Source: Clostridiales bacterium
GTDB lineage: Bacteria > Bacillota > Clostridia > Lachnospirales > Lachnospiraceae
Reading direction: 5' to 3'
Assembly: GCA_021202925.1 (NCBI GenBank)
Contig: JAJQCD010000023.1
Span: 62,001 to 126,000, forward strand
Length of the DNA: 64,000 nt
The notes under the pieces are model-generated. The model saw only the letters and a program-made list of their open reading frames with translations. It had not been told where the DNA came from and made no database searches. This document shows positions 3,247 to 16,301 of the stretch, one piece after another (the stretch's first letter is position 1; the number at the start of each line of letters is the position of its first letter). The position numbers were made by a program, and so were the translations under genes.

Positions 3247-4650
3247 TTATGCGTTCTCTTCTGCCGCATGCTTTTCCTTCAGAACGGCCACGTTGTGATC
3301 GACCCGTTTCTTGTTCAGCGGATAGATGAAACCAACGATGAGAGCCATCAGGCCGAAGCCGACCAGCGGAACGACGCAGGCGATGTTGTAAATGCCGTCG
3401 GTGATGACTTTGTCATAGGCATTGGCGGCGGTGTAACCGATGGAACTGAGCATCAGGCCGCGGACGCCGGAGGACAATGCGCTTCCGAACTTTCTGCCAA
3501 AGCTGTACACGCTGTAGATGGTGCCGTCCATCCGGTTTCCGGTTCGGACTTCTTCATCGTCTACGATATCGGTGACAAGGGCGAAGGTAACCGGGTTGAA
3601 CAAGGCCAGGCCGACCGTCACGCCGCAGTAAATGACGATCCAGGTCCAGACGCTCTCAGTATGGATCAGATACGCAATCAGGAAGACGCCAGCGGAAATC
3701 AGGCACCCAACGACAGTGATTTCTTTCTTGCCGACTTTGGCGACGACACTGACGATGACGGCTGCGATTGCCAGGGTGATCACGGTCTCGAGCGGGCTGG
3801 TGAGGGACTGCATGCTGCCCTGACCGAAATAGTTGTCAAAGATGTAAGTACCCATGCCGTGGAAGGCGCTATTGGAGCATTCCTGCACAATGATCATCAG
3901 GACGATCGCGATCAGGCCGCGGTTGTGGGTGAGACCCTTCAGAAATGCGCCGATTTCCAGTTTCTCATTCCGCTCTGGAATCTTCACACGCTCAGTAGTC
4001 AGGACATAGCATGCCATCCACAGGACGAAGGAACAGATTGAAAAGACCAGCGCGGCGGAAGTCATCCGGAAACCAGAGAAAATCTGGTTGCCGCTTGCGT
4101 CATTGACATAGACCAGGAGCGGTACGGCAAAGTTGATGACTGTCACGGATAAGGTACCGCCGATGTGTCTCCAGTTGGAGAGTTTGGTACGGTCGACTGC
4201 ATCGTTCGACATGGCAGAGGCCATGGAGCCGTAAGGGATAATGATTGCGGTGTAAAGCACGCTTGAGTACAGCAGGTAAGTGACGAACAGCCAGACAATA
4301 CGGAATGTCATCGGCATGGTCTTAAACCAGTTTGCGTACATCAGGAAACTGACCAGAGATACGGGGCCGGCAATCCGGCGGATCCAGGGGCGGAATTTGC
4401 CTTCCTTTGTGGTCGGGGAGTGGTCACAGATCTGACCCATAGCCAGGTCTGTGACTGCGTCGAGAACCTGCGCGACCATCATGGCGATACCGACGTAGAC
4501 AGCACTCACATCCATCACGTCTGTGTAGAACTTCATCATAAAACCGGTACAGAGCGTGTACGTGAAGTCGCCGGCGAAGTTGCCGCACAGATAGCCAAGC
4601 TGGTCATGCCAGCCGAAAGGCTTCACTTTTTTGGTTTGATTTGTAGACAT
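3247..4650 (-). CDS. GPH-family (MelB-like) major facilitator symporter
   Basis: The 467-residue protein has about twelve hydrophobic segments and the opening seen in glycoside-pentoside-hexuronide:cation symporters, GYLCGNFAGDFTYTL, then FYTDVMDVSAVYVGIAMMVAQVLDAVTDLAMG with the conserved aspartates near the cation site, and GKFRPWI in the loop between helices 2 and 3. The family imports sugars or glycosides, but Firmicute members also sit in clusters for plant phenolics. I start at 4650 (MSTNQTKK), where the protein matches family length; 4662 is a second ATG with a closer Shine-Dalgarno site. The open frame extends upstream to 5118 but that part is not protein-like. It is transcribed away from the MATE operon and shares an operator-like motif with the secreted-esterase promoter, so import is probably induced together with the rest of the island. 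Confidence 0.85.
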   Translation of the reverse strand: MSTNQTKKVKPFGWHDQLGYLCGNFAGDFTYTLCTGFMMKFYTDVMDVSAVYVGIAMMVAQVLDAVTDLAMGQICDHSPTTKEGKFRPWIRRIAGPVSLVSFLMYANWFKTMPMTFRIVWLFVTYLLYSSVLYTAIIIPYGSMASAMSNDAVDRTKLSNWRHIGGTLSVTVINFAVPLLVYVNDASGNQIFSGFRMTSAALVFSICSFVLWMACYVLTTERVKIPERNEKLEIGAFLKGLTHNRGLIAIVLMIIVQECSNSAFHGMGTYIFDNYFGQGSMQSLTSPLETVITLAIAAVIVSVVAKVGKKEITVVGCLISAGVFLIAYLIHTESVWTWIVIYCGVTVGLALFNPVTFALVTDIVDDEEVRTGNRMDGTIYSVYSFGRKFGSALSSGVRGLMLSSIGYTAANAYDKVITDGIYNIACVVPLVGFGLMALIVGFIYPLNKKRVDHNVAVLKEKHAAEENA

Positions 4651-4765
4651 TTCATGAACCATCCTTTTCCTTTTGTTGGGATCGTTTCCTGTGGAGGAAC
4701 TCTGCGACGTCGACCAGAGATCCTGTAACAGAAATTGAATCGCATCTGTTGTCGATGTTGTACTA

Positions 4766-4794
4766 TTTTTAACATGTATTTTACTTAAGATCAA
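4766..4794 (-). promoter_or_regulatory. Likely symporter promoter
   Basis: On the minus strand TTGATC (4794-4789), 17 bases, TAAAAA (4771-4766). Both boxes are weak, as expected for an activator-dependent promoter. The operator-like palindrome at 4814-4830 lies 19 bases upstream. Confidence 0.45.
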
Positions 4795-4813
4795 TTCGAC
4801 TTGACCATGCATC

Positions 4814-14116: not shown

Positions 14117-15474
14117 AGCGATTATGGCTGAGTGTGCCGCCCTGTATGTCAGATGTGCTGGGATTTCAGGCGGTAATGGAAGTTACGAAAGGTGCGGGAA
14201 TTGTTGATGATTCCTCACAGTACAAGCCGCTTCCGCAGGATCGCACCGGGGCGCCGGAAGGGCATGGACGACATGACCGTCATGGGGACGGAAGGGAAGG
14301 CCGCAGAGAGAGACGTGGCGTGGCGAAAGAATACCGGGAGCGATATGAGCGTCGTGCTGAGAGCGGTAAATCTTATACGGGAACAACGCCAGGCGTCCGC
14401 GGGGAAAAGACACGGAGGCGTGGCATCCCGTTTAATCCGGGAAAGCTGTTTCCGGGGGTGCGGGTCGTTTCCTCGGAGATTGAAGAGACTGACGTCATTA
14501 CGGGTAGCGATAAAAAAGTCGCCAGCGCAGCGCAGCTCGCTGAGAGGGAGTTCCATCCGGATTTTATGTTGTTTACGACCGCACCGTGTGCGTCCATGAT
14601 TGCGTCAGATCTGGACCAGTCGGCGGAAAAAGTTCAGGGTCTGTACGGGATTCCGGCAGCGGTGGTGAAACTGGACGGACAGAAGGATTATCTTTATGGG
14701 ATCAGCTGTACGCTGGAAGCGATGGGAAAGCTCCTGTTGAAGAAGCAGGAGAAGATTCCCGGCACGGTTAACCTGCTGGGGTTAAATAAGGTTGACTGGA
14801 CAGACGAAATGTTGTGGAGCGTGGAGGAATGGCTGGATGAGGCCGGAATCCAGGTGCTCTCCCGCTGGGGAATGCAGGAGAAAACAGAACGTCTGAGGAC
14901 AGCTGCGGGAGCGTCGGTAAATCTCGTGGTTGGTGTGGCCGGTATGCGGCTGGCAGTCTATATGGAACGGGAGTTCGGAATTCCTTATATCGTCGGCGCG
15001 CCGTTTGGAAACAGACAGTGTGGGATACTGTTGTCACAGCTGAAGGCTGTGATGAGAGGAGAATCTGTGGCGCCGGTCATGATAAACCAGAATAATCCGG
15101 AAGCGGATAAGCAGGCGGAGCCGGAGATTCTGATCCTGGGCGAGCAGATGCTGGGAAACGCGATTCGGAACGTGCTGGAGACGGAAGAAGGAAACAGGAG
15201 AATCCGGGTCTGCAGTTTTTATGAGTTTGATAAAAAGCTGGCAAGGCCGGGAGATCGAAAACTGTTCAGTGAGGAGGAACTGGCCGGACAGCTGGTAAAT
15301 CCATCGCTGCGGGTGGTTTTTGGTGATGAAGACTACTGGTTGGAGGAAGCGGAGGCGGTGCAATGGATTGCTCTGCCAAATCGGGCGAATCTTGCCCCGT
15401 CAACGCCGATGGAGCCGGTCAATCTGGTCGGAGTCAACCTGGATCTCTGGCTGAAACATAAACTGGAGGTGTAA
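14113..15474 (+). CDS. Nitrogenase component-1-type oxidoreductase subunit with basic insertion
   Basis: The 453-residue protein (ATG 14113, coupled to the previous gene by ATGA, after GGAGGAG; a GTG at 14107 is less likely) belongs to the NifD/NifK/BchN/BchB family. [13 protein letters not shown] gives Cys11 and [14 protein letters not shown] gives Cys159, both in positions that in the family bind the inter-subunit iron-sulfur cluster. [11 protein letters not shown] and [11 protein letters not shown] follow the Rossmann-domain pattern. Residues about 40-105 are a low-complexity Arg/Gly/Glu-rich stretch that the family lacks. No nifE, nifN or nifB is near, so FeMo-cofactor nitrogen fixation is very unlikely; a dark-operative type reductase of an organic substrate is the natural model. 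Confidence 0.75.
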
Positions 15475-15476
15475 CG

Positions 15477-16301
15477 ATGAGACAAATTGCGATATATGGG
15501 AAGGGTGGAATCGGAAAATCGACGACTACACAGAATCTGGCGGCGGCATTGGCGGAGCAAGGGCGAAAGCTTTTGCTGGTGGGTTGTGATCCGAAGGCGG
15601 ATTCCACACGCCTGATTCTGGGCGGGATGGCAAAGAGCAATGTGCTGGAGGTCATGCGCGAGACGGAGGAGGATGACGTAACGCTGGATCAGTTCCTTTA
15701 TACTGGTTTCCTGGGAATTCAGGCAGTGGAGTCCGGCGGACCGGAGCCGGGTGTCGGCTGTGCCGGACGGGGCATTACGACTGCGATTACAATGCTGGAA
15801 AATCTCGGGGCATATCGTCCGGATCTGGACTATGTGCTGTATGACGTGCTCGGCGACGTGGTCTGCGGCGGTTTTGCGATGCCGATTCGTGAAGGCAAGG
15901 CGAAGGAGATTTATATTGTCTGTTCGGGCGAGATGATGAGCCTGTATGCGGCAAATAATATCTGCAGGGGAATTCTGCGTTACGCCGCGGCGGGGAAGAC
16001 ACGGTTAGGCGGCCTGATCTGCAATTCCCGCCTGGTGGACAATGAACGGGAGCTGGTGGAGGAATTTGCCCGGATGCTGGGAACGCAGCTTTTATATTTT
16101 CTCCCGCGGGATAACGCAGTGCAGCGTGCGGAGCTCCGCCGCAAAACCGTGATTGAGGATGCGCCGGACTGTCTGCAGGCGGAAGCTTATCGGGAACTGG
16201 CGCGGCGCATGGAGAACAATCAGACATTCTGTGTACCGAAGCCGTTGACAACGGAAGAACTGGAGACTCTTTTGCTCCGATATTCCTTTATGGTGGAATG
16301 A
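15477..16301 (+). CDS. NifH-like iron protein (nitrogenase-like component 2)
   Basis: The 274-residue protein has the NifH/BchL layout: P-loop [14 protein letters not shown] at residues 7-20, [11 protein letters not shown] (switch region) at 36-46, and the two [4Fe-4S] ligand cysteines, Cys95 in GVGCAGRGI and Cys130 in [14 protein letters not shown]. The dimer would pass electrons with ATP hydrolysis to the component-1 proteins encoded just upstream. GGAGGT precedes the ATG by 6 bases and the stop of the upstream gene is 2 bases away, so the genes are translationally linked. It is shorter and more divergent than true NifH. All residues needed for ATP and cluster binding are present, so it should be active. 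Confidence 0.88.

Follow-up and report, generated by a model that had tools for sequence, protein, structure and literature searches.

A putative LysR-controlled island for plant phenolics in gut anaerobes, linked in some lineages to an unusual nitrogenase-like trio

Background

Among the enzymes related to nitrogenase, DPOR, COR and CfbCD are described in the available part of PMC11423573 as acting on tetrapyrroles, and the available part of PMC10470551 describes a gene cluster of Clostridium scatologenes for the anaerobic hydrolysis of C-C bonds in polyphenol fragments, with a reductase of the short-chain dehydrogenase/reductase (SDR) family in its pathway. Genes reminiscent of both kinds lie side by side in the locus treated here, which is part of a stretch of 64,000 nucleotides (contig JAJQCD010000023.1, positions 62,001 to 126,000; assembly GCA_021202925.1) from a Clostridiales bacterium of the family Lachnospiraceae, a stretch that we refer to, at its full length, as the window. 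Genes were called by Pfam and NCBIfam scans of the open reading frames (ORFs) of the window, the host genome being 3.17 Mb, and all of the genes named by the original prediction, made from the letters of the window, were present. They include two hydrolases of the PhlG type (PhlG1 and PhlG2) and a nitrogenase-like trio, i.e., X1, a one-domain component-1-like subunit, D, a BchB-like component-1 subunit, and H, a NifH-type iron protein. The linkage of this trio with PhlG genes in several lineages is our main finding, and the reading of it to which we would give an even chance is that of a catabolic island under LysR control by which gut anaerobes use a plant phenolic, one that probably bears ester or acyl groups, with the trio as an addition in some lineages.

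Linkage of the trio with PhlG genes

A scan of a genome collection with PhlG1 returned 31 loci (identity 71-90%), and whole genomes were searched with an alignment of D, a genome being counted if at least one piece scored above 300 bits. Trio-type D was found in 11 of the 31 PhlG1 genomes versus a single one (G198) of 248 comparison genomes, the latter being 250 genomes of the family minus the window's own and that of Hungatella (G046), with G165, whose PhlG is 52% identical, kept in. Ignoring phylogeny, the Fisher p is about 6e-11, and a rough version by lineage, in which the number of lineages was guessed as five out of about 15, gives p = 1.7e-6. Conserved linkage of nif-like with PhlG-like genes was the test that the original prediction had put forward, and such linkage was indeed seen, in several lineages and with various gene orders. 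D and H lie within the fetched flanks of PhlG1 at 7 of the 31 loci, and the trio is on PhlG1's own contig in 8 of the 11 genomes (L078, L080, L082, L084, L085, L087, L090 and L091). In G259, the genes for a substrate-binding protein (SBP), OppB and OppC are on the trio contig and the remaining Opp genes on the PhlG1 contig, as if one cluster had been split.

The arrangements differ from locus to locus. In L085, L087 and L136, the trio stands ahead of SBP-Opp-MATE-PhlG1; in L078 and L080, it sits between genes for exporter-type ABC proteins and MATE-ABH (ABH being an alpha/beta hydrolase-like protein), on the strand opposite PhlG1; in L091, it lies downstream of PhlG1 at a distance of about 1 kb; and in the window, it is downstream of the esterase gene. 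An esterase with an EstA domain and a LysR gene also adjoin the trio in L136 and in L137 (G261), where X1 occupies 5157-5606. Searches with X1 itself gave a match at E 1e-12 in one of 396 other genomes of the family and, among 397 other genomes of the phylum, three weak matches at E 0.001, all within the N-terminal portion of component-1 ORFs of full length. Both gene content and linkage are sound, with better support than the sequence of the window alone could have given.

Genes of the island

The features of the window are as follows.

3247..~4650, minus strand: GPH-family cation symporter (MFS_2); PF13347 8.3e-66, TIGR00792 282.1 bits, above cut-off
4816..4828, no strand: TTCCAAATCCGAA, a degenerate operator-like site between the symporter and MATE genes; motif search
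5181..6593, plus strand: MATE efflux transporter; TIGR00797 above cut-off
6625..7506, plus strand: PhlG1, a C-C hydrolase-like metal enzyme of PF18089; 74.9 bits, gathering cut-off 22.7
7568..8365, plus strand: SDR-family protein without catalytic Tyr and Lys; Pfam, motif check in 28 homologues
8384..9244, plus strand: PhlG2, second PF18089 protein; 35 bits, cut-off 22.7
9339..10604, plus strand: ABH, alpha/beta hydrolase-like protein; no Pfam family match, conserved GHSGG
10686..11570, minus strand: LysR-type regulator; PF03466 and PF00126
11646..11658, no strand: operator-like palindrome TTCCAATTTGGAA (T-N11-A) in the LysR/esterase gap; motif also at cluster promoters of relatives
11757..13628, plus strand: secreted esterase, N-terminal domain Ig-like and of the EstA type; PF18435 and PF00756
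13664..14116, plus strand: X1, one-domain component-1-like subunit with a His/Arg/Gly-rich N-terminus; no Pfam or NCBIfam match
14113..15474, plus strand: D, BchB-like component-1 subunit
15477..16301, plus strand: H, NifH-type ATP-dependent iron protein; TIGR01287 425.8 bits, cut-off 394.35
16636..18405, plus strand: AmtB-PII fusion adjoining the trio, perhaps associated with it; TIGR00836

Two start sites differ from those first given. The symporter gene had been started at 5118, and a start near 4650 is more likely because the GPH model begins to match only at residue 174 of its long ORF; for the component-1-like gene D, the ATG at 14113 is the most likely start rather than the GTG at 14107. 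The esterase, X1, D, H and AmtB genes follow one another on the same strand, D overlapping the end of X1 and being separated from H by two bases. The ORF at 18497, after AmtB-PII, reads by eye as a glutamate dehydrogenase.

The solved structures closest to PhlG1 are those of phloretin hydrolase (5xe5) and PhlG (3hwp). Its residues His142, Glu161, His266 and Glu270, which we take to be the metal ligands of PF18089 proteins, are invariant in 34 of 34 PhlG1-type sequences and align with phloretin hydrolase, and the PhlG2-type sequences have kept His134 (26/26), His259 (26/26), Glu263 (25/26, with one gap) and an invariant Glu153. The original prediction had described the SDR as altered, and this was borne out by its homologues, none of 28 having the catalytic Tyr (23 have Phe, 4 Cys and 1 Ser) and 27 of the 28 having Arg in place of the catalytic Lys, so that the Tyr-x3-Lys pattern of a classical SDR dehydrogenase is missing. 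There are four PF18089 genes in the window's genome, two of them on other contigs (L069 and L070), and the L069 copy adjoins an Opp-type importer and a lactonase. G165 has a PhlG locus that is less closely related, with esterases of the BD-FAE and EstA types and a reductase of the old-yellow-enzyme type as neighbours. These G165 neighbours, and the lactonase beside another PhlG of the window's genome, are as would be expected for plant phenolics and point the same way as the island itself.

Conservation of the PhlG core

The hosts of the PhlG1 loci are Clostridia, Treponema, Propionibacteriaceae and the actinomycete Frondihabitans, with Lawsonibacter, Pseudoflavonifractor sp. 60 and Hungatella hathewayi included. 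Eight of the 31 loci are from records naming rabbit, goat or roe deer, and six more are from RUG isolates, which are presumably of rumen origin. Neighbours were counted within the stretches fetched round PhlG1, with truncated contigs kept in, and as contigs of metagenome-assembled genomes are often short, the counts are lower bounds: the SDR was found beside PhlG1 in 27 of the 31, PhlG2 in 25, MATE and ABH in 22 each and the GPH symporter in 8, and the SDR, PhlG2 and ABH were all together in 20. Components of Opp/Dpp-type importers were present at 20 of the 31 loci, though unrelated ATPases may be among those counted, and LysR at 18, any LysR of at least 28% identity having been counted. Paired exporter-type ABC proteins were present at five (L078, L080, L082, L085 and L087). 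Several relatives have, between the Opp genes and MATE, a short gene whose product is about 195 aa long (L085:7905-8489), with homologues in 8 loci and a weak match to DUF2157 that is below the cut-off.

That PhlG1 is 71-90% identical over such diverse hosts suggests that the PhlG core is a transferred unit. The core of PhlG, Tyr-less SDR and ABH looks like an undescribed module for plant compounds, and Hungatella hathewayi DSM 13479 is a named strain that carries it.

Nature of X1, D and H

The trio is a new form among nitrogenase-like enzymes. The H proteins of the trio form a clade with 100/100 support, which groups beside high-scoring NifH proteins, and H shares 63-69% identity with 14 high-scoring NifH proteins of the class; versus the DPOR_bchL model it scores 204.3 bits, below the cut-off of 345.15. 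In predicted fold, X1 and D come closest to the subunits of DPOR, D being of the BchB type. X1 is 140-196 aa long in 10 of 10 aligned sequences, its best fold match covers residues 27-153 of BchN, and of the BchN cluster cysteines the second and third are present and invariant and the first is absent. An origin of X1 as a component-1 subunit is indicated by its fold, its cysteine alignment and the weak matches to three full-length component-1 ORFs; its profile had no match among PDB sequences. The possibility that X1 is a broken full-length gene was rejected in view of its short length in all of those 10 sequences and of the presence of D within 0.2 kb wherever both were mapped. In D, an invariant Asp32-Asp33 pair aligns a few residues away from what we take to be the position of the aspartate ligand of BchB.

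D scored 40 bits with the nifD model (cut-off 653.55) and is far below the NifD and NifE cut-offs, and no NifDK pair was found in the operon at curated cut-offs, the rest of the genome not having been searched for NifDK. The best NifB score in the window's genome was 25.6 bits (cut-off 343.65). N2 fixation by this bacterium was considered and is unlikely, as the genome has no NifB over the cut-off and the operon lacks a NifDK pair. The same genome has a second nitrogenase-like set (L071), with component-1-like genes and an iron protein 47% identical to H. Low-complexity stretches rich in His, Arg and Gly are found at the N-termini of X1, in an insert of D (about 14230-14460 in the window) and at the N-termini of OppC in relatives.

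The operator motif

A T-N11-A palindrome is the type of site bound by LysR proteins. The original prediction had a shared motif at three promoters, and of this the perfect palindrome at 11646 and the degenerate copy at 4816 were upheld, with no further copy near MATE. The site at 11646 is the sole perfect intergenic one in the window's cluster, and a site of the relaxed form at 3968 falls inside a gene. With this relaxed form, TTCCRNNNYGGAA, which was chosen after the 11646 site had been seen, partly overlapping loci that total 696 kb gave 46 sites, versus 3.25 on average and never more than 6 in 20 order-1 Markov controls, and a less redundant set of 554 kb (without the window and L137-L140) gave 39. 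By manual count, 23 of the 46 are at most about 110 bases upstream of SBP, MATE, LysR, PhlG, SDR or esterase genes; two more are upstream of EstA-type esterases in L136 and L137, and the rest are intragenic or unassigned to a gene. The LysR proteins of L136 and L137 are 58-59% identical to that of the window and 72-78% identical to the nearest relative. The earlier claim of LysR control is supported by the recurrence of the conserved T-N11-A motif, a putative operator, at promoters.

What the island may do, and other explanations

If the island is catabolic, the secreted esterase would trim the compound outside the cell, uptake would be by the GPH symporter here and often by an Opp/Dpp-type ABC importer in relatives, and ABH and the two metal-dependent PhlG-type hydrolases would cut ester and carbon-carbon bonds inside, with the Tyr-less SDR probably acting on an intermediate and MATE, joined in some relatives by the paired exporter-type ABC proteins, expelling the unused aromatic part. 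This succession of esterase outside, import, hydrolysis and export of the residue is proposed because of the family assignments of the proteins. In some lineages, an added ATP-dependent reductase would prepare a harder substrate: NifH-type H would feed electrons into a cluster bound jointly by one-domain X1 and BchB-like D, where D would bring about a low-potential reduction, be it of the ring, of an aryl ether or of a conjugated double bond. The trio is given this place because of its linkage and because its relatives carry out ATP-driven, low-potential electron transfer to hard substrates. What the data show is the gene content, its conserved linkage, the repeated motif, the predicted folds of X1 and D, the NifH clade and the conserved ligand residues of PhlG; from these we infer the substrate, the order of the steps, the direction of transport and the action of the reductase on the same compound. 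The original prediction, in which an ester-bound aromatic, perhaps a flavonoid or acylphloroglucinol, is taken up and degraded, is partly supported, and these compounds would be candidate substrates. A bolder proposal, tentative and on the doubtful side, is that the trio is a new nitrogenase-like class in catabolism, in which a NifH-type protein and X1-D reduce a plant aromatic, perhaps dearomatising it, for O2-free cleavage by PhlG.

Several observations weigh against a catabolic island with the trio as its reductase. Trio-type D is absent from 20 of the 31 PhlG1 genomes, including those of Hungatella hathewayi and Frondihabitans, and the trio is therefore dispensable for the core; the trio and PhlG1 are on different contigs in G277 and G280; G198 has a trio and no PF18089 gene; and the AmtB near the trio hints at a role in nitrogen use rather than catabolism. 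In the window's cluster, the Pfam and NCBIfam scans recognised no gene for flavone reductase, for chalcone isomerase or for the phloroglucinol pathway, and no ring-opening enzyme of the PF04199 Cyclase family. PF04199, which is presumably the family of the phloroglucinol ring-opening enzyme, was found in 12 of 32 genomes (a family match only) and is a mixed marker of phloroglucinol use. The cases of G198, G277 and G280 would suit an explanation that we regard as unlikely, i.e., that the trio has its own job, such as the release of usable nitrogen or the reduction of another small molecule, and is near the island through a shared LysR and a plant diet. It would also suit the occurrence of AmtB-PII near the trio in the window, in L136 (12287-14365) and in L133 (2-1444), three of nine trio loci with wide flanks, and in none of the 31 loci fetched round PhlG1. 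A separate job sits less well with the 8 of 11 genomes in which the trio shares PhlG1's contig, or with L091, in which the two are so close, and the reading frame of the G198 nifH is broken (L068:10840-11000), as if decaying, unless this is an assembly error. That these are unrelated genes which happen to lie together would account for the 20 genomes without D, but is very improbable in light of the 11 of 31 versus 1 of 248, the linkage in several gene orders and the repeated operator motif.

Two further explanations change the compound or its fate. The island might be a defence, mainly through MATE and the ABC exporters, against antimicrobial plant phenolics or acylphloroglucinols, which it would dismantle and pump out, an idea favoured by MATE at 22 of the 31 loci, by exporter-type ABC pairs at five, and by the known PhlG, which reportedly converts the antibiotic 2,4-diacetylphloroglucinol to monoacetylphloroglucinol; we consider it improbable, since the Opp/Dpp components at 20 of the 31 loci, the GPH symporter and the secreted esterases speak for uptake and use. 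Less probable again is a chlorophyll-derived tetrapyrrole of plant feed as substrate, to be de-esterified by the esterase and ABH, cut at its beta-keto ester ring by the PhlG-type enzymes and reduced in its macrocycle by the trio. The DPOR-like folds of X1 and D, the tetrapyrrole substrates of DPOR, COR and CfbCD given in the available part of PMC11423573, and the herbivore and RUG sources (8 of the 31 records and a further 6) would all fit such a role, and the literature search yielded nothing direct on it. Set against these are the small phenolic substrates of the PhlG-family enzymes with solved structures and the occurrence of the core in the actinomycete Frondihabitans, and a fold match shows no substrate. 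X1 is also without the BchN domains that would help to close a tetrapyrrole pocket. Two further forms of plant-compound use were tried and set aside, namely a plain flavonoid cluster of flavone reductase, chalcone isomerase and phloretin hydrolase, no such partners having been recognised beside PhlG1 in the window, and degradation of the catechin A-ring, for which two C-C hydrolases would suit ring opening and the literature search gave no support.

Significance

Should the trio act on the substrate of the island, nitrogenase-like chemistry would extend to the way in which plant compounds are degraded in the gut. No report of this, and no paper joining nitrogenase-like with PhlG-type genes, was found in a literature search of open-licence papers, which is weak evidence. 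With one of its two subunits pared to the domain that binds the cluster, such a component 1 would show that this machinery can do with very little protein. There is also a bearing on nifH surveys: H passes the curated NifH model in a genome that shows no NifB over the cut-off, and such surveys may therefore wrongly count bacteria of this kind as nitrogen fixers.

Comparison with known systems

On the hydrolase side, the window proteins have the PF18089 family and the His/Glu ligand residues in common with phloretin hydrolase and PhlG, but their score with the 2,4-diacetylphloroglucinol hydrolase model is far below what that model asks (27.6 versus 600 bits), and the window has two copies together with a Tyr-less SDR and ABH and no recognised flavonoid genes alongside. 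As for C. scatologenes, the cyclohydrolase, hydroxyoxohexanoate dehydrogenase and triacetate lyase of its pathway, as given in the available part of PMC10470551, were not recognised in the window's cluster by the Pfam and NCBIfam scans.

On the reductase side, the similarity to Mo, V and Fe nitrogenases is that H exceeds the curated NifH cut-off, and the differences are the missing NifDK pair of the operon and the lack of a NifB over the cut-off. DPOR (BchLNB) shares the BchB-type fold with D, but has a full three-domain BchN where the trio has the one-domain X1, a BchL-type iron protein where the trio has the NifH-scoring H, and other neighbours than those of the island; no photosynthesis genes were found among the genes scanned in the island. 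The available part of PMC11423573 mentions neither a one-domain subunit nor a PhlG partner for nitrogenase-like enzymes. In the two-subunit type of Treponema saccharophilum, the component-1 proteins are 417 and 390 aa long and ABC importer genes adjoin theirs; on the plasmid pTS1 (L181), the operon consists of NifH, two component-1 genes and an importer of the iron type. What this system, CfbCD, Mar and Isr have in common with the trio is the pairing of a NifH-type donor with a component-1-type acceptor.

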